Shown piece by piece: positions 32,417 to 63,915 of a DNA stretch of 64,000 nt. The notes beneath the pieces are model-generated. The model had not been told where the DNA came from. It was given only the letters and a program-made list of their open reading frames with translations, and made no database searches. A program made the position numbers and the translations under genes. The stretch spans positions 30,854 to 94,853 of the forward strand of contig JAFZWC010000022.1 in assembly GCA_017617475.1 (NCBI GenBank), in the 5' to 3' direction. This DNA is from Bacteroidales bacterium. GTDB taxonomy: Bacteria > Bacteroidota > Bacteroidia > Bacteroidales > UBA932. Each line of letters starts with the position of its first letter. Position 1 is the first letter of the stretch.

Positions 32417-33520
32417 ATGTCTTTAAAATGTGGTATAGTAGGCTTGCCCAACGTGGGCAAGTCTACTTTGTTTAATTGCGTAAGCTCCGGAAAAGCCCAG
32501 AGCGCCAACTTCCCTTTCTGCACCATCGACCCCAACGTGGGTTCCACCAACGTGCCCGACAAGCGCCTGGAAGTGCTTACGGAGATTTGCCAGCCCAAAC
32601 GCACCATCCCCGCCACGGTGGAAATTGTAGACATCGCCGGTCTGGTGAAGGGCGCGTCCAAGGGTGAGGGCCTGGGAAACCAGTTCCTGGCCAACATCCG
32701 CGAAACCGATGCCATCCTGCACGTGCTCCGCTGCTTTGACGACGGCAATATAGTGCATGTGGACGGCTCCGTAGACCCCGTCCGCGACAAGGAAGTGGTA
32801 GATACCGAGCTCCAGATCAAGGACCTGGAAACGGTGGAAAACCGCATCAAGAAGGTGGAGAAGATGGCCACCACCGGGGGCGACAAGGAGGCCAAGAAAC
32901 TGCTTTCGCTGCTTCTTCGTTACCGTGAGGTGCTTCTCCAGGGCAAGAGCTGCCGCACCGTGGTGCCGGAGAATGCCGAGGAAGAGCAGATGGCCAAGGA
33001 CCTCTACCTCCTTACCAACAAGCCTGTCCTTTATGTGTGCAACGTAGACGAGGCATCGGCCGCAAGCGGCAATGCTTATGTTGACGCCGTCCGCGCCGCC
33101 GTGGCTGGCGAAAACGCCCAGATTCTGGTGATCGCCGCCAAGACGGAGGCCGAAATCGCCGAGATCGAAGACTACGAAGACCGCCAGATGTTCCTGGAAG
33201 AAATGGGCCTGGAGGAATCCGGCGTGGTGCGCCTGATCCAGAGCGCGTATAAGCTCCTGGGTCTCCGTACCTTCTTCACCGCCGGAGCCGACGAGTGCCG
33301 CGCCTGGACCATCGTGGCCGGAGACAAGGCACCCCGCGCCGCCGGTGTCATCCACACGGACTTTGAGCGGGGCTTCATCCGCGCCGAGGTCATCAAGTAC
33401 GACGACTTTGTCCAGTACAAGACGGAAGCGGCCGTCCGCGCCGCCGGCAAGATGGGCATCGAAGGCAAGGACTACGTTGTCCAGGACGGCGATATAATGC
33501 ATTTCCTCTTTAACGTCTAA
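32417..33520 (+). CDS. ychF: Ribosome-binding ATPase YchF
   Basis: A 367-residue Obg-family P-loop protein that hydrolyses ATP rather than GTP. G1 is GLPNVGKSTLFN, G3 is DIAGLVKGASKGEGLGN, and the specificity motif is CNVDE in place of NKxD, as expected in YchF. A coiled coil follows (about 125-200), and the C-terminal TGS domain is complete (LRTFFTAGADECRAW ... YVVQDGDIMHFLFNV). Full length. A strong hairpin 20 bases after the stop probably ends the transcript. Confidence 0.97.
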   Translation: MSLKCGIVGLPNVGKSTLFNCVSSGKAQSANFPFCTIDPNVGSTNVPDKRLEVLTEICQPKRTIPATVEIVDIAGLVKGASKGEGLGNQFLANIRETDAILHVLRCFDDGNIVHVDGSVDPVRDKEVVDTELQIKDLETVENRIKKVEKMATTGGDKEAKKLLSLLLRYREVLLQGKSCRTVVPENAEEEQMAKDLYLLTNKPVLYVCNVDEASAASGNAYVDAVRAAVAGENAQILVIAAKTEAEIAEIEDYEDRQMFLEEMGLEESGVVRLIQSAYKLLGLRTFFTAGADECRAWTIVAGDKAPRAAGVIHTDFERGFIRAEVIKYDDFVQYKTEAAVRAAGKMGIEGKDYVVQDGDIMHFLFNV

Positions 33521-33540
33521 CGACGTTTTCGGCTAGTTAT

Positions 33541-33593
33541 CCGGAAGAAAATTGGTTTTTTGGGCTACTGCACAAAAAATAATTTTCTTCCGG
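33541..33593 (+). terminator. Large hairpin after ychF, probable terminator
   Basis: Perfect 13-base arms CCGGAAGAAAATT and AATTTTCTTCCGG, plus an inner TTTTTTG/CAAAAAA stem after a small bulge. It lacks a long T-run after the outer arm, so its terminator role is less certain than its structure. Confidence 0.6.
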
Positions 33594-33611
33594 ATTTGTT
33601 TTCTAAGTGCA

Positions 33612-33660
33612 TTAGTATATACAGAGCCAGATGGGGCAGTGATCCGAAACACCGCAGAGG
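33612..33660 (-). pseudogene. Relic of the 3' end of a second EEP-family nuclease gene
   Basis: On the minus strand this stretch reads LCGVSDHCPIWLCIY and then TAA. The intact EEP gene at 34055-35014 ends LGGVSDHCPIWLCLYRP. The nucleotide match is also direct: reverse complement of about 33614-33653 against 34966-35004, mostly identical. The relic is cut immediately at the first palindrome of the left array. It contains the conserved SDH motif of the family, but nothing upstream of it is left. Confidence 0.75.
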
Positions 33661-33661
33661 G

Positions 33662-33819
33662 GTGCACATACCTGGTATGTACCCAAATATCGCCCTGCAG
33701 AGCCATTTCCATGTACATACCTTCTTCTAATCGGCCTTATACCCCGGTTTTGCTAAAGGTATGTACACGAAAACCCAAATACAGAAGTCTTTAGGTGTAC
33801 ATATCCGGTATGTGCACCC
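33662..33819. repeat. Left composite palindromic array (P1-H1-H2-P2)
   Basis: P1, GCACATACCTGGTATGTAC at 33664-33682, is a near-palindrome around a single T. H1, TGTACATACC at 33712-33721, and H2, GGTATGTACA at 33758-33767, are perfect 10-base complements that could form one long stem. P2, at 33794-33818 (GTGTACATATCC then GGTATGTGCACC), is a second imperfect palindrome. Start-to-start spacings are 48, 46 and 37 bases, almost the same as in the right array. The bases between the motifs differ between arrays, so motif and spacing are what is conserved. Confidence 0.85.
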
Positions 33820-33845
33820 CCAATGGCATAATCCCGAATTACAAG

Positions 33846-33922
33846 AGAGGGGGCCCGCGGGGCCTATTGGCCCCTAGAAAAAAAGTCATTCTCGGCGGCA
33901 GAGCCGCCGGCGGGCCCCCTCT
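33846..33922. repeat. GC-rich three-way-junction inverted repeat
   Basis: Outer perfect 13-base stem AGAGGGGGCCCGC (33846-33858) with GCGGGCCCCCTCT (33910-33922), enclosing two further hairpins: GGGGCC-TATT-GGCCCC (33859-33874) and CGGCGGC-AGA-GCCGCCG (33893-33909). It lies between the left array and the EEP gene. Nothing else in 33923-34054 looks like a gene; the gap 33521-34054 thus holds hairpin, relic, array and this structure. Confidence 0.8.
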
Positions 33923-34054
33923 TCTTTCAAAAACCCGTTAAAACCAGCTATTCCCCATGACACACAAAATAAAGACTTTTATTTGTATAAAAACTGCGTG
34001 AAAAATATTTCTGTTTTAACCGACCTGTTTCAATACCTCTCATTATCTTTGGAC

Positions 34055-35014
34055 ATGAACGTAATGCTCACTTTTGGGGCGGCTTTTCTACTATTGACAA
34101 CGCCCCCGTCCGACACCCTTCGGGTTCTGTTCTGGAACCTGGAGAACTTCTTCGACTACAGAAACGACTCACTCGGCCCTTCGGACGAAGAATTCTCGGC
34201 CCGGGGCACAAGACACTGGACCAGGAAGCGGTTTCAGACCAAATGCAACGCCATTGCAAAGGGCGTCTTTTGGACCGGGTCGCAGGAAGGGGGGGTACCG
34301 GATGTTATCGGCCTGGCCGAGGTGGAAAATGAATATGTCCTAAAGCGCCTGCTCCAGACAACGGCTCTCCGCAAACTGGATTACAGCATCGTGCACTTCG
34401 ATTCGCCCGACCCGCGGGGCATAGACGTCGCCCTCCTTTTCCGCCGTAGCCGCCTAACCCTAGTGGACGCCAAACCCTGTCACCTGTTCGATCAGGATTC
34501 CGTCATAATGGCCACGAGGGACATTCTTTTGTGTCGCTTCCGGTCTGCCCACGGGCGGGATCTTGCCATTCTGGTGAACCACCACCCCTCCAAGTACGGT
34601 GGACTGGAAGCATCGGAATCCCGACGACGAATTGCCGTGGAAAGGCTGCGTTTTCTGGCCGATTCTCTTTTGGCCGTGGGCGTCCGGGACATTGTGGGCA
34701 TGGGAGACTTTAACAATACGCCGGACAACCCTGTCTATTCGCTATTGGAACCCACGCTTCATAATTTGGCCGCCCCGCTGCACCAAAAGGGTCTGGGCAC
34801 CATTAAATATGACGGCGAATGGGAACTCATCGACCTGTTCTTTGCCTCCCCGGAACTCAACACTTCCGCCATGAAGATTATGCAGATTCCTTTTCTGATG
34901 ACCCGTGACAGCGGTCACGCGGGGACCAAACCCTTAAGAACCTATTCCGGTCCCCGTTACCTGGGCGGCGTTTCGGATCACTGTCCCATTTGGCTGTGTT
35001 TATATCGGCCCTGA
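34055..35014 (+). CDS. Endonuclease/exonuclease/phosphatase (EEP) family protein, possibly exported
   Basis: A 319-residue DNase I-like phosphoesterase. Motifs run in order: FWNLENFFD (metal-binding Asn and Glu), DVIGLAEVEN, NHHPSKYGG, VGMGDFNNTP and GVSDHCPIW with the catalytic His. ATG 34055 starts a short hydrophobic segment (MLTFGAAFLLLTT) that may be a signal peptide. An exact -7 element TATCTTTG lies at 34044-34051, only three bases before the ATG. The gene is followed 11 bases later by the transposase. Substrate (nucleic acid, phosphoinositide or other phosphodiester) cannot be read from sequence. A relic of a second copy sits at 33612-33660 in inverted orientation. Confidence 0.88.
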   Translation: MNVMLTFGAAFLLLTTPPSDTLRVLFWNLENFFDYRNDSLGPSDEEFSARGTRHWTRKRFQTKCNAIAKGVFWTGSQEGGVPDVIGLAEVENEYVLKRLLQTTALRKLDYSIVHFDSPDPRGIDVALLFRRSRLTLVDAKPCHLFDQDSVIMATRDILLCRFRSAHGRDLAILVNHHPSKYGGLEASESRRRIAVERLRFLADSLLAVGVRDIVGMGDFNNTPDNPVYSLLEPTLHNLAAPLHQKGLGTIKYDGEWELIDLFFASPELNTSAMKIMQIPFLMTRDSGHAGTKPLRTYSGPRYLGGVSDHCPIWLCLYRP

Positions 35015-35025
35015 TTATTTGAGAT

Positions 35026-35946
35026 ATGCCTAATTATCATCTTTGCTTCACCTCTCATAAAGAAGTCTTGTTCAGAGACGAGGAGGATATGAATCATGCT
35101 TTCAACAGCCTTTGCTCCTCTTTGTATAAAACGGACAGCGCTTGTTATGCCTATACGGCAATGTCCGATCATCATCACGGCTGCTACAGAACCAAGGAGC
35201 CGGTAGAACTTATTCGTACTTTTAGGGAGTCACACACTAAGTATATGAATCGGAAGTACAGCCGTTGTGGTTGTTTTGGAGAGCCCGGGGTCTATTGTCA
35301 GGAAATCTCTGGCACCAAGCATTTTATCGCCGCCGTTTCTTATGTATTGAAGAACCCTCCTCATCATGGGGTGGCGACAACGCCTTTTGAATATCCCTTT
35401 TCATCGGCAAATGATTACTTCCGTAAGGAACTGGGGAAAAACGTAGATTCAGAAAGGTTTCTTAACTATCAGGAAATCAAGGCCATCTTACCTAGGAGGG
35501 CCGAATTTGACCCATCGTGGAAAATGGGACGAAAGGGCGTTTTTCTTTCGGGCTCCGTTCTTGACATAGGTGCTGTAGAAACCAATTTCGGAACAGCCCA
35601 GGCCTTCAACTATTATATGGGCCGAAAGAGCGGGGAGGACTGGATTAAGGAGCAGGCCGATGAGAATAACTCCTCGCCCTTCGCGCTGGATAACATTGAA
35701 GCACCTCTAATTAAAACGCACGGTCTTTCTGTGGCCGATTTGCTCCGAAATGAAAAAAGCCGGTTCAGCACAGTGGCCATAACGGATATGGAAGTGTGTT
35801 CGCTGATAGACAAGAAGTATATTCTGGATTATGGAAAGAAGTCGGTATACTTACTGGAAGAAAAAGAGAAACTCGAAATTGCAAACCTTCTCTTTAAGAA
35901 ACACACATTCAACGCGGACCAAATAAAACGTTGTTTGGTTTTATGA
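35026..35946 (+). CDS. Y1 (REP-associated tyrosine-type) transposase with C-terminal extension
   Basis: A 306-residue HUH-endonuclease-like protein. The N-terminal ~135 residues match the Y1 transposase pattern: AMSDHHHGCYRT (His49 and His51 as the HUH pair), a helix with TFRESHTKYMNRKYSR, then FIAAVSYVLKNPPHHG, where Tyr106 is the likely catalytic residue. The tail of about 170 residues is unusual against ~150-200 residues for plain family members. It ends in KLEIANLLFKKHTFNADQIKRCLVL, which looks like a helix-turn-helix of the DnaA-C-terminal type seen in RAYT proteins. Base composition is visibly less GC-rich than its neighbours. It starts 11 bases after the EEP gene and is flanked at a distance by two matching palindromic arrays. 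Confidence 0.78.
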   Translation: MPNYHLCFTSHKEVLFRDEEDMNHAFNSLCSSLYKTDSACYAYTAMSDHHHGCYRTKEPVELIRTFRESHTKYMNRKYSRCGCFGEPGVYCQEISGTKHFIAAVSYVLKNPPHHGVATTPFEYPFSSANDYFRKELGKNVDSERFLNYQEIKAILPRRAEFDPSWKMGRKGVFLSGSVLDIGAVETNFGTAQAFNYYMGRKSGEDWIKEQADENNSSPFALDNIEAPLIKTHGLSVADLLRNEKSRFSTVAITDMEVCSLIDKKYILDYGKKSVYLLEEKEKLEIANLLFKKHTFNADQIKRCLVL

Positions 35947-35968
35947 CCGGACGTGACTGTCTTGGGGG

Positions 35969-36204
35969 CCGCACATACCTGGTATGTACACAAAGACGTT
36001 GTCGGGAGAAGGATTCGATGTACATACCTGTCGAGAAGAGCTCGTTTTGGGCCGATTCGGGGAGGTATGTACAAACGAAAGGCCGTGTTAGGCCGATTCC
36101 GTGTACATACCGGGTATGCGCCCCCCCCTCCGCCGGGAATAAGTGCCTTTTCGGCCCGTGCCAGAGGCCTCTGCAGGGGGAGTACATATCTGGTATGTGC
36201 ACCC
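35969..36204. repeat. Right composite palindromic array (P1-H1-H2-P2-P3)
   Basis: P1, GCACATACCTGGTATGTAC (35971-35989), is identical to left P1. H1 TGTACATACC at 36019-36028, H2 GGTATGTACA at 36064-36073, P2 GTGTACATACCGGGTATGCG at 36101-36120, plus an extra P3 at 36182-36204 (TACATATCTGGTATGTGCA core). Spacings are 48, 45 and 37, against 48, 46 and 37 on the left. A GC-rich inverted repeat, CCCCTCCGC (36125-36133) with GCGGAGGGG (36211-36219), encloses an AGAGGCCTCT palindrome and P3. The whole gap 35947-36302 is this structure plus the galK promoter. Confidence 0.85.
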
Positions 36205-36302: not shown

Positions 36303-37445
36303 ATGAAACAGAAAATCCAGGAAAAATTCAAGACCCTTTTCGGTAAGGAAGGAACCCTTTATATGTCCTCCGGCCGCATCAACCTTATTGGTGAGCATAC
36401 GGACTACAACGGCGGTTATGTGTTCCCCGGCGCCATCAACTTCGGTATTATGGCGGCCATCGAGCCCAACGGAACGGACAAGGTGAAGGTATTCTCCATC
36501 GACTTTGACGAATTGGTGGAATTCGGCCTGCAGGAAGAGGACAAGCCCCAGCAGCAGTGGGCCCGCTATATCTTTGGTGTATGCCGGGAAACCATCAAGC
36601 GCGGCGGCAAGGTGAAGGGCTTCAACGCCGTCTTCGCCGGAGACGTCCCGCTGGGTGCCGGCCTCAGCTCTTCGGCCGCCCTGGAGAGCGTGTTCGCCTT
36701 CGCCATCAACGAGATTAACGGCAACGGAATAGAGAAGTTCGAGCTGGCGAAAATCGGCCAGAGCACGGAACACAACTACTGCGGCGTCAAGTGCGGCATC
36801 ATGGACCAGTTCGCCTCCATCTTCGGCAAGGAAGGTTCCCTGATGCGTCTCAACTGCAAGACGGGTGAGTACAAATATTTCCCCTTCCATCCCAAGGGAT
36901 ACAAGGTGGTGCTCCTGGACACCTGCGTGAAGCACGAGCTGGCCTCCAGCGCCTATAACAAGCGCCGCGAGAGCTGCGAGCGCGCCGCCGCCGCCATCAA
37001 GAAGAACCATCCCGAGGTGGACTTCCTCTCCGACGCCAAGCGCGTATGGCTGGACGAGGTCCGCGACCAGATTCCCCAGGAGGATTTCCTGAGGGCCGAA
37101 TATGTGATCGGCGAGGTCCAGCGCGTGCTGGATGTGTGCGACGCCCTGGAGCGTGACGACTACGAGACCGTGGGTGAAATGATGTACCAGACCCACTTCG
37201 GCCTGAGCCGCCTGTACGAGGTTTCCTGCGAGGAGCTCGATTTCCTGAACAAACTGGCCCGCAAATGCGACGTCACCGGCTCCCGCGTCATGGGCGGCGG
37301 TTTCGGCGGCTGCACCATCAACCTGGTGAAGGAAGAACTGTACGACGCCTTTATCCAGACGGCCACCGAGCAGTTCACCAAGAAGTTCGGCCACGCGCCC
37401 AAGATCTATAACGTAGTTATCAGCGATGGCGCTCGCAAGCTGTAG
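36303..37445 (+). CDS. galK: Galactokinase
   Basis: A 380-residue GHMP kinase that phosphorylates galactose at C1 in the Leloir pathway. The galactokinase signature GRINLIGEHTDYNGGYVFPGAI is at about 22-43. The ATP-binding GHMP motif is PLGAGLSSSAALE (about 116-128), and the C-terminal motif is SRVMGGGFGGCTIN. Full length. The gene overlaps the CpXC gene by 20 bases. Galactose mutarotase (galM) lies 4.7 kb away on the other strand; no galT is present in the window. Confidence 0.96.
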   Translation: MKQKIQEKFKTLFGKEGTLYMSSGRINLIGEHTDYNGGYVFPGAINFGIMAAIEPNGTDKVKVFSIDFDELVEFGLQEEDKPQQQWARYIFGVCRETIKRGGKVKGFNAVFAGDVPLGAGLSSSAALESVFAFAINEINGNGIEKFELAKIGQSTEHNYCGVKCGIMDQFASIFGKEGSLMRLNCKTGEYKYFPFHPKGYKVVLLDTCVKHELASSAYNKRRESCERAAAAIKKNHPEVDFLSDAKRVWLDEVRDQIPQEDFLRAEYVIGEVQRVLDVCDALERDDYETVGEMMYQTHFGLSRLYEVSCEELDFLNKLARKCDVTGSRVMGGGFGGCTINLVKEELYDAFIQTATEQFTKKFGHAPKIYNVVISDGARKL

Positions 37446-61918: not shown

Positions 61919-63915
61919 AAAATTCATATATTTATATGGTTTAAAATTAAAGTATAAAATATAATACTTAGAATATTATAATAATAAAATATCATATCAT
62001 ATCACATCATCTTTTATTCAGATTCTAAAATACCATAATACTATTTATAAAGTAAATTTTTTATAGTATTAGAAATAATTTTGGTTTTTCCCAATTTTTC
62101 AATTTTTTTAATAAAAATCATTTTTTCTTCTTTATTTAATCTTGCAATTAATTTTTCCAAAACAAAATTCCCATAATTATTATTTAACAAACTTTCTAAT
62201 TTTTCTTGTTCAACAATGTTTTTAAAAATTTTTTTAACAGTATTTTCTTTTCCATATTTAATACAATTTTCAACAACATTAGATGAAAATTTTTGCATAG
62301 ATAAAGATAAATAATTTTGTACAATAGTCTCAATAATAACATCGCAATATGCTAAATCTGTATTACTAAGTAAACTTTGTACAGCATAATTTGCATATGG
62401 ATGTTGTATAAATGATAATGGGTCCCCATTAGTAATATAATTTGCTAATTTTTTAGCAATATTTTTATCTTTAGAATGTTTAACTAATTGTATTAAAACG
62501 CAAACACCAAAGGGATTAATTATAAGTCTATCTATTAAATTTATTAAATTTTGGTTTAATTCATTTCTTTCTTCATCTTTTGTGCAAGAAATAAATTTTT
62601 GTAATACATGAGTTCCTTTTGAGTCTAAAGCTAATTCACTTTCATTATTTAGAATATATTTTAATACTAATTTTTTTTCTTCTGGCATATTAATTATTTC
62701 TATTAAACTTTGTAAAGGATGGGTACCAAATGAATTATTTGCTATTTCTACAAAACGATTATTTATACTTTCTAATAATTGTATGCGTTGAGAAGGTAAG
62801 CATATTTGTATTAATTTTTTACTAAAATAATTTCCATATTTATCAATTGTTATATCACTGAAATAATTTTTTATTTTTGAAATAATTAACTCAACTTCGT
62901 TTTCATTTACTTTTTTAATGATATTTTGAACTTCTCTACTCCCTTTTTGTGTAATTATATAATTATAAAGAGTTTGCCCATTCATATCTAATAATTTTTT
63001 TATTGATAAATTCGAACTCGATTTATTATTATTATTATTTTTGTCTTCATTTTGTAATTTTTCGATTTTAATTGATTTATATTTTTGAGATAAATTTTTT
63101 TTATTATTTATTGGTATTTGTCCATTATTAAAACTTATGCATCTTAAATTAGAATTATTATTATTTAAATCATTATTAAAAGATAAAGGTAAGGTATTAT
63201 TAATATTTTGATAATTAAAAGCATTTATTGGATTTATACCACTAAAAGAATTCCATTGTGGATATATATTATTAAATGAATTGAAAGGAATTGAAATATT
63301 ATTATTATTGTTATTATTATAAAAGTGTTGATAATCTATATTATTATTTCTATTAAAAAAATTCATATTAAAATTATTAAAATTGTTATTTTGATTCATC
63401 ATTAAATTATTTTTTTCATTAAGAAAAAGATTATGATTTGCATTATATTGATTAATATTATTATTAATATTTACATCATTATTTACATTATTATTTACAT
63501 TATTATTTGAATATAAAATATTATTTTGAGGATAATTTAAAATTTTATTACTATCCTCTCTAGTACTATTATCCTTTTTATTATCGACACTTTTTTCTTC
63601 ATTTGATTCTTCTTCCTCTAAACTATTACTATTATCTTTAAAATAATCATCATCTGTCAAAAAAGATGGTAGACAATGATTTACTTTTTGTATTTTTTCA
63701 GTTTGGTTTTGTTGTTCATTGCTTTTTGGAATAATATCTTTTAAATTTTCTTCTTGGTTTATTTTGATTTCATCGGAATTCATATATAAATAAAATTTGA
63801 TTAATTAATTATATTGATTTATATGATTTTTTTGGAAATTATTTTAATAAAAATTATTTTATAATTAATTTATTTTATAATAATTATTTAATAAATAATT
63901 TGAAAATATTTATTG
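61907..63915. other. AT-rich eukaryotic-type island, probable chimeric join
   Basis: Base composition changes abruptly to very AT-rich at about 61907 and back at about 63915. The island holds one complete eukaryotic-type gene with AT-rich flanks (61919-62040 and 63784-63914, in which I see nothing else). The bacterial sequences at the two ends are from different genes: an EF-G-like gene on the left and a bile acid:sodium symporter-family gene on the right. A single insertion would have split one gene, so two joins are needed. Confidence 0.85.
62041..63783 (-). CDS. Pumilio/PUF-family RNA-binding protein (eukaryotic type)
   Basis: A 580-residue protein. Residues of about 1-250 are low-complexity and Asn-rich, as in AT-rich protist or anaerobic-fungal genomes. 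From about 262 on there are eight PUF repeats; base-contact triplets by eye are SRxxQ, NYxxK, THxxQ, THxxQ, VCxxI, NYxxQ, SNxxE and NFxxE. Repeat 7, SSNVVENC, is the near-invariant guanine-reading repeat. PUF proteins bind 3' UTRs and repress or localise mRNA; bacteria do not carry them as a rule. There is no intron and no in-frame TAA/TAG, so the standard genetic code applies. Complete from ATG 63783 to TAG 62041. Confidence 0.9.
   Translation of the reverse strand: MNSDEIKINQEENLKDIIPKSNEQQNQTEKIQKVNHCLPSFLTDDDYFKDNSNSLEEEESNEEKSVDNKKDNSTREDSNKILNYPQNNILYSNNNVNNNVNNDVNINNNINQYNANHNLFLNEKNNLMMNQNNNFNNFNMNFFNRNNNIDYQHFYNNNNNNNISIPFNSFNNIYPQWNSFSGINPINAFNYQNINNTLPLSFNNDLNNNNSNLRCISFNNGQIPINNKKNLSQKYKSIKIEKLQNEDKNNNNNKSSSNLSIKKLLDMNGQTLYNYIITQKGSREVQNIIKKVNENEVELIISKIKNYFSDITIDKYGNYFSKKLIQICLPSQRIQLLESINNRFVEIANNSFGTHPLQSLIEIINMPEEKKLVLKYILNNESELALDSKGTHVLQKFISCTKDEERNELNQNLINLIDRLIINPFGVCVLIQLVKHSKDKNIAKKLANYITNGDPLSFIQHPYANYAVQSLLSNTDLAYCDVIIETIVQNYLSLSMQKFSSNVVENCIKYGKENTVKKIFKNIVEQEKLESLLNNNYGNFVLEKLIARLNKEEKMIFIKKIEKLGKTKIISNTIKNLLYK

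Follow-up and report, generated by a model that had tools for sequence, protein, structure and literature searches.

The 64-kb stretch of Bacteroidales DNA analyzed here (the window, 64,000 nucleotides in all) contains a gene for a Y1 HUH transposase similar to RAYTs, the transposases associated with repetitive extragenic palindromes (REPs). Directly upstream is a gene for a nuclease of the EEP family, and the two genes lie between two composite arrays of short inverted repeats, with ychF and galK on the outer sides (Table 1). Each array has four parts (P1, H1, H2 and P2). Their start-to-start steps, read directly from the sequence, were 48/46/37 on the left and 48/45/37 on the right, as the initial annotation had stated. 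H1 and H2 were TGTACATACC and GGTATGTACA in both arrays, and are thus perfect 10-base complements, and P1 was identical over 19 bases between the arrays; these parts of the earlier description also proved correct. Three features were added to it: a further palindrome (P3), an antisense remnant of the EEP 3' end, and complementarity between P1 and P2 (24 nt at 92% in the left array, 28 nt at 86% in the right). Each array is therefore a dyad within a dyad, H1 and H2 forming the inner pair and P1 and P2 the outer one.

The left array can also be described as two 48-bp inverted-repeat units (33674-33721 and 33758-33805), 84 bp apart, plus outer half-sites; in half-sites (> and <) it reads > 10 < 39 > 45 < 39 > 10 <. 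In the right array the units are 83 bp apart, again with outer half-sites. The half-site GTACATACC had 22 matches with at most one mismatch in the 64 kb (shuffled mean 7.8, largest 15). Thirteen of them were located in the two arrays, P3 being counted in, and the remaining nine were single half-sites, each with one mismatch, scattered through the window. The palindrome, with up to two mismatches, gave 10 matches (five sites, both strands), all in the arrays, where shuffled sequences gave a mean of 0.38 and at most 5. The arrays therefore stand both by direct reading and by counts above those of shuffles.

Table 1. Positions of the arrays, genes and related features in the window
Feature	Position	Strand	Remarks
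YchF-type GTPase gene (ychF)	32417..33520	+	left flank
Antisense remnant of EEP 3' end	33612..33662	-	GVSDHCPIWLCIY, stop; inverted repeat, 84% over 45 nt; abuts left array
Left four-part array	33662..33817	none	P1 33664-33682, H1 33712-33721, H2 33758-33767, P2 33795-33817
Exo_endo_phos_3 (EEP) nuclease gene	34055..35014	+	319 aa; hydrophobic N terminus by reading
RAYT/TnpAREP-like Y1 HUH transposase gene	35026..35946	+	306 aa; H49, H51, Y106, N110 invariant
Right four-part array	35969..36123	none	P1 35971-35989, H1 36019-36028, H2 36064-36073, P2 36101-36123
Extra palindrome P3, right array	36182..36200	none	GTACATATCTGGTATGTGC
Galactokinase gene (galK)	36303..37445	+	right flank; inverted relative to cassette in relatives L001 and L014

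The transposase has the HUH motif followed by Tyr and then Asn that is expected of RAYT/TnpAREP proteins, and these four residues were unchanged in 32 of 32 aligned sequences; we take Y106, by its motif, to be the catalytic tyrosine. The predicted fold also agreed with this family, as its best match was E. coli TnpAREP (4er8), with 13% identity over the structural alignment.

Half-site words and spacing in relatives

Scanning species genomes gave 214 matching stretches, of which 161 encode a relative of the transposase, and the best 80 were used (L001-L080, all from Bacteroidales or Bacteroidia). Several contigs of metagenome-assembled genomes end on the upstream side of the RAYT after only a few hundred bases. 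In L001-L016 the RAYT was 46-76% identical to that of the window, and in 16 of 16 the EEP gene was directly upstream of it in the same orientation (EEP-linked loci); the other 64 are referred to as sister loci. Throughout this family, inverted-repeat (REPIN-like) units mostly flank the gene with a clade-typical period (mainly 83/84, 73 or 82 bp). The half-site word, on the other hand, differs between lineages and is the same upstream and downstream of one RAYT gene. The word TGTACATACC was common to the window, L001 and L002; we found TGTACATACACC in L003, TGTACATACAG in L014, TGTACAAAC in L004 and L005, TGTACAAGTC in L007, L011, L012, L013 and L015, and still other words in L006, L008 and L010. 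Words of the EEP-linked clade start with TGTACA and continue with a lineage-specific extension, and sister loci have other words. No clear array was seen at the RAYT locus of L016. Despite the differing words, the layout > 49 > 44-46 < 49 < was common to the window, L001, L007, L011 (downstream array), L012, L013 and L015, and an alignment of 13 four-part arrays spanned 158 columns and needed few gaps; some of the half-sites in it are degenerate.

With ties between periods split, 8 of 17 EEP-linked loci had 83 or 84 bp as their commonest period and about 5.5 had 49 bp, which is the step from P1 to H1. Of the 64 sister loci, 29 had 73 bp, 9 had 82 bp and about 7 had 72 or 74 bp. As a control, 73 and 82 were outside the four commonest periods in distant flanks of the same loci and in one shuffle each. 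Of 50 steps below 200 bp between neighboring exact units in the fetched stretches, 45 were 84 bp and two were 83 bp (the rest 94, 127 and 168). A tree of the RAYTs placed the 73-bp class in one clade and the EEP-linked class in another, and the 82-bp label arose twice; these labels were assigned by us, and 15 of 81 rows were unlabelled, including four loci of about 71 bp within the clade of the second 82-bp group. To compare arms we used 18 of the 37 loci of the 73-bp class, those with both arrays passing the score. Identity was 0.83 between the arms upstream and downstream of one RAYT, and 0.41 on average between different loci (highest pair 0.87). Arm distance tracked RAYT distance (Mantel r 0.53, 0 of 2000 permutations), a value to be read with the loci being related by descent and the permutation leaving this kinship in. 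Since arms agree within a locus and differ between loci, position and spacing are kept and the half-sites of a locus change together.

Open reading frames (ORFs) run across the arrays, as 84 is a multiple of 3. When 10 array-crossing ORFs were compared with Pfam, a clear domain was found in only two, in both cases outside the array, and one more had a weak match without a passing stretch. We also observed that the 73-bp-class RAYTs of L036 and L027 adjoin ribosomal-protein operons (S12/S7/EF-G and S17/L16, by reading the translations).

Genome-wide searches for units were run in genomes of relatives rather than that of the window's strain, so that in the window itself the REPIN view is limited to the copies beside the RAYT. 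The pattern TATGTAC-N30-GTACATA had 46 copies in the genome of L002, 21 in that of L014, 10 in that of L003 and 2 in that of L001. The reversed pattern had none in these genomes, and the pattern itself was missing from all six genomes whose loci carry other words. Relatives G002, G007 and G003 had what defines a REPIN (an inverted pair of a common word, a diverse spacer and dispersed copies), and tandem arrays far from the RAYT were found in G002 and G007. For units of the GTTGACA type, the L066 genome had 10 copies and the L056 genome 3, with none in G019 and G001. The CCGTCAC type gave six units in the L036 genome, five of which map to the RAYT by their coordinates, and one in the L048 genome; three further genomes had none. 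From these genome-by-genome counts, dispersal is real but not general. The initial annotation would have been contradicted by arrays that have no copies in relatives, or that are fixed and unrelated to the transposase; neither was the case in the relatives.

The EEP gene and the borders of the element

The initial annotation placed the EEP gene, together with the transposase gene, between the arrays, and a two-gene system of EEP nuclease and RAYT could be proposed from their constant adjacency in the EEP-linked loci and from purifying selection on EEP, whose ratio of nonsynonymous to synonymous substitution rates was 0.13 against L001 and 0.11-0.19 across five pairs. We then sampled 101 genomes of the GTDB genus of L001, with cut-offs of E up to 1e-40 for EEP and the wider RAYT family and up to 1e-90 for this RAYT clade. 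The EEP orthologue was present in 80 of 101, a wider-family RAYT in 32 and this RAYT clade in 6; in a family-wide sample, a RAYT (E up to 1e-80) was detected in one of 119 genomes, G001. At 15 of 30 galK loci, EEP was located upstream of galK in the same orientation with no RAYT between them. These gaps were 36-75 bp in 12 cases and 102, 237 and 616 bp in the others, and none of the 15 contained TGTACA. The locus L142 (ychF-84 bp-EEP-36 bp-galK) has the gene order of the window without the element. In the EEP tree, RAYT-bearing and RAYT-less rows were intermixed, which requires at least four changes of RAYT presence, by loss or gain. EEP was next to the RAYT in 0 of 64 sister loci, many of which have short flanks (in L021 a distant EEP was 6.5 kb off). 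Given the genus counts and the RAYT-less EEP sites, EEP is not a partner of the RAYT, and a two-gene system is very improbable and largely refuted. Rather, EEP belongs to the resident genes at this position in the genus; it is a bystander between the arrays and outside the element. This case shows that a gene between repeats may be foreign to the element even if it is found beside the transposase in every relative detected first.

The EEP genes of L004, L006, L008 and L010-L013 have in-frame insertions, often of low complexity, with the frame kept; some of these presumably resemble translated palindromic repeats. In L003, a gene for a DNA/RNA non-specific endonuclease (PF01223, 5948-6898) is located between the upstream array and EEP. 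Smaller repeats also occur in the window: a terminator-like 22-nt inverted repeat with T/A runs directly 3' of ychF (33539-33595), a GC-rich inverted repeat of 16 nt downstream of the left array and upstream of EEP (33846-33922), and AT-rich tandem repeats at the window end (63463-63901).

Another possibility is a transposon (TIRtron- or IS-like) that has the arrays as its terminal inverted repeats and moves EEP and RAYT as a unit. Array pairs do flank the gene and are inverted repeats of each other, and among sister-clade pairs with 60-70% identity any neighbor gene within about 5 kb was shared in only 18 of 458 (many contigs are short). However, in 16 of 16 EEP-linked relatives the RAYT follows EEP immediately and the fetched stretch includes ychF, galK or both, and in seven of seven genomes searched the best second copy was only 38% identical (a contig-split piece in G007 was left aside). 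Moreover, EEP is outside the array pair in L012, L013 and L015: one array of the pair sits between EEP and RAYT, and the 4 kb around the RAYT showed no four-part array upstream of EEP; in L004, L005 and L007 half-sites occur both between EEP and RAYT and upstream of EEP. No empty site joined array-to-array was found among sister-locus neighbors, inversion alignments and RAYT-less galK loci. We consider this transposon improbable.

Three comparisons revealed inversion of neighboring DNA, and in each of them one endpoint or more was close to an array. Between the window and L001, the EEP-RAYT cassette aligned directly from -1102 to inside the RAYT, and the galK side (+312..+6949) was inverted and matched -1408..-8000 of L001. 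These ends fall beyond the arrays, at distances of about 60 and 45 bp; only one end of this inversion is visible because the ychF side of the window is unmatched in the L001 stretch. The same galK inversion was present in L014. Between L007 and L013 a 3.3-kb segment was inverted, with one end at the downstream array of L013 and the second complete four-part array of L007 (+3770..+3924), and the other about 0.4 kb from the first array of L007, where L013 has no array. Between L056 and L066, the RAYT with -111..+135 was direct and more than 5 kb on either side was inverted; one end was about 20 bp from the array of L056, the others were 0.3-1.6 kb from arrays, and gene order changed again beyond 6.8 kb. 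In the window, the antisense EEP remnant beside the left array is a trace of past rearrangement.

A spaced half-site word and its transposase

The initial annotation did not recognize the four-part array. Its general kind is already in print, as descriptions of REPINs, BIMEs (bacterial interspersed mosaic elements), REPtrons, subclass 2.6 and TIRYTs exist. REPINs are inverted REP pairs with a diverse spacer, in tandem clusters beside RAYTs (PMC3116915, PMC8049555), and BIMEs and REPtrons are likewise inverted REP pairs clustered in tandem beside RAYTs (PMC8266576). The present locus is similar to REPIN-RAYT of Pseudomonas (PMC3116915, PMC8049555) in its inverted pair of a short word, diverse spacer, dispersed copies and tandem clusters by the RAYT, and also in that the RAYT there is single-copy and vertically inherited, with REPIN groups tied to particular RAYTs. 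It differs in having no GTAG-type REP, a clade-typical multi-unit period (73/82/84 bp), a four-part dyad array beside the gene and a 306-aa RAYT with a long C-terminal part. With E. coli TnpAREP and its BIMEs (4er8; PMC8266576) it shares the fold of the catalytic part, the tandem inverted pairs and the REPtron layout, whereas sequence identity is low and the repeat word, foot and spacing differ. Bacteroidetes RAYTs of subclass 2.6 (RAYT group 5; PMC6006769) also have atypical flanks without GT[AG]G and copies elsewhere in the genome. That subclass, however, is described with a length of 179, a HuH-Y distance of 82 aa, NH[LIV]H, and YIH[QN]NP with WQ, whereas the window protein has 306 aa, 54 residues between H51 and Y106, DHHH and YVLKNP, and no W between. 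Subclass 2.1 (RAYT group 1, TIRYT; PMC6006769, PMC3733652), in which other kinds of inverted repeats occur, is similar in its short HuH-Y distance, its C-terminal extension and its non-canonical inverted repeats at the gene, sometimes dispersed. It is unlike the present locus in that here many short half-sites form phased arrays, where that subclass has a single long terminal repeat, and the word GGGG[AT][CG]A[CG] was not noticed here. Its mark is a C-terminal HTH (helix-turn-helix) or Bac_DnaA_C-like extension; a Pfam scan of the whole window transposase (E up to 10) had no HTH among the listed matches. Among the open-licence matches listed for REP/RAYT in Bacteroidales, inversion and nuclease, no title or start of an abstract describes this RAYT family.

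Taken together, the locus is very probably REPtron-like, with a RAYT clade that is new within the REPIN-RAYT kind in gut-type Bacteroidales and that would read its own spaced, inverted half-site word. Comparison across loci showed that word and RAYT co-vary, that spacing is nearly fixed within a clade, that arrays of a locus change in concert, that units are dispersed in some genomes and that some inversion endpoints are at or near arrays. The likeness to REP/BIME and RAYT proposed by the initial annotation is thus backed by the fold, by dispersed cognate units in relatives and by the co-varying word, and its idea of a non-autonomous element or recognition platform is supported. A RAYT of this clade, found once per genome where looked at, would recognize inverted pairs of its own half-site word, which is TGTACATACC in the window, with a set distance between the two half-sites. 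It would then nick and rejoin single-stranded array DNA, which may spread units in tandem and to new sites and keep the copies of one genome alike, and the two arrays may also serve as start sites of inversion. By analogy with studied RAYT relatives, which act on single strands (PMC8266576, PMC6006769, PMC3733652), single-strand processing appears the most likely.

Several observations weigh against this reading. The window transposase scored 28.7 bits with the NCBIfam REP_Tyr_transpos profile (cut-off 80) and 14.6 with Pfam Y1_Tnp (cut-off 23). The Trp of typical RAYTs, named beside HuH and Y as conserved in TnpAREP proteins (PMC6006769), is absent between H51 and Y106, and none is invariant there in the alignment; the GT[AG]G foot of canonical REPs is missing from these arrays. 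Because the HUH core and the fold are those of the family, we read the missing Trp as divergence and not exclusion, and the predicted product is a divergent RAYT/TnpAREP-like HUH protein. In L009 the word downstream of the RAYT is CTACACATG with a period of 107 bp, though its RAYT belongs to the EEP-linked clade; L017, L034 and L079, among others, had no clear layout in the array-layout script, and L008 (82 by half-sites) and four sister loci at 71 are exceptions in period. The GTTGACA-type word of L066 matched twice in G002, so the match of word and genome is not absolute. Both exact units of G001, and 5 of 6 in G019 by coordinates, are at the RAYT. Neither an excision intermediate nor strain-level presence/absence was seen.

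The hairpin part of this reading is also affected. The initial annotation held that conserved spacing implies a selected secondary structure, and the strong dyad and stable folds agree with this: folded as single-stranded DNA, the left array had a z of -6.54 and the right -4.78, with 0 of 200 shuffles as good. In the 13 full arrays, nested pairing was kept in 94.7% of cells, 40 cells having changed on both sides; slid controls were far lower, and three of five measures were above all 500 shuffles, the other two not being clear. Covariation between lineages was mostly a single split between two lineages. Within units, arm deviations lacked compensation in the partner (12 observed versus 9.9 expected, 0 versus 8.2 and 1 versus 2.9), and G.T was not clearly commoner than A.C (13 versus 7, 10 versus 20, 0 versus 2 and 0 versus 1), both at low power. 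The missing compensation and wobble bias weaken the single-strand hairpin, and selection on structure is not secured; the data are equally well explained by a half-site word that is recognized at constant spacing, whether on one strand or on duplex DNA.

These same results would suit double-stranded operator or architectural sites with helix-phased half-sites. Their binding partner would be the RAYT, perhaps by way of the C-terminal part, or a different factor, and they would serve gene control without mobility. Periods of 73 and 84 bp are, by arithmetic, near 7 and 8 helical turns, and the restriction of exact units to the RAYT in G001, and largely in G019, is also as expected of such sites. 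In contrast, periods of 82 and 71 bp are not whole turns, the tandem arrays of G002 and G007 are far from the RAYT, and the studied relatives work on single strands. We regard operator sites as rather unlikely.

Within the REPtron-like reading, it is conceivable, though doubtful, that the array pair is a platform for both inversion and recognition, used by a RAYT that has a quickly drifting half-site code and itself fixes the spacing of the arrays. If so, the RAYT would flip abutting segments and homogenize the copies of a locus to the current word, and code and enzyme would co-evolve on an unchanging scaffold. A concrete genomic effect of the arrays is suggested by the inversions with endpoints close to them. 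For the question of how RAYTs select and spread repeats, this family provides dozens of natural enzyme-word pairs of known and nearly constant geometry, and the recognition code may be readable by comparison and testable by swapping.

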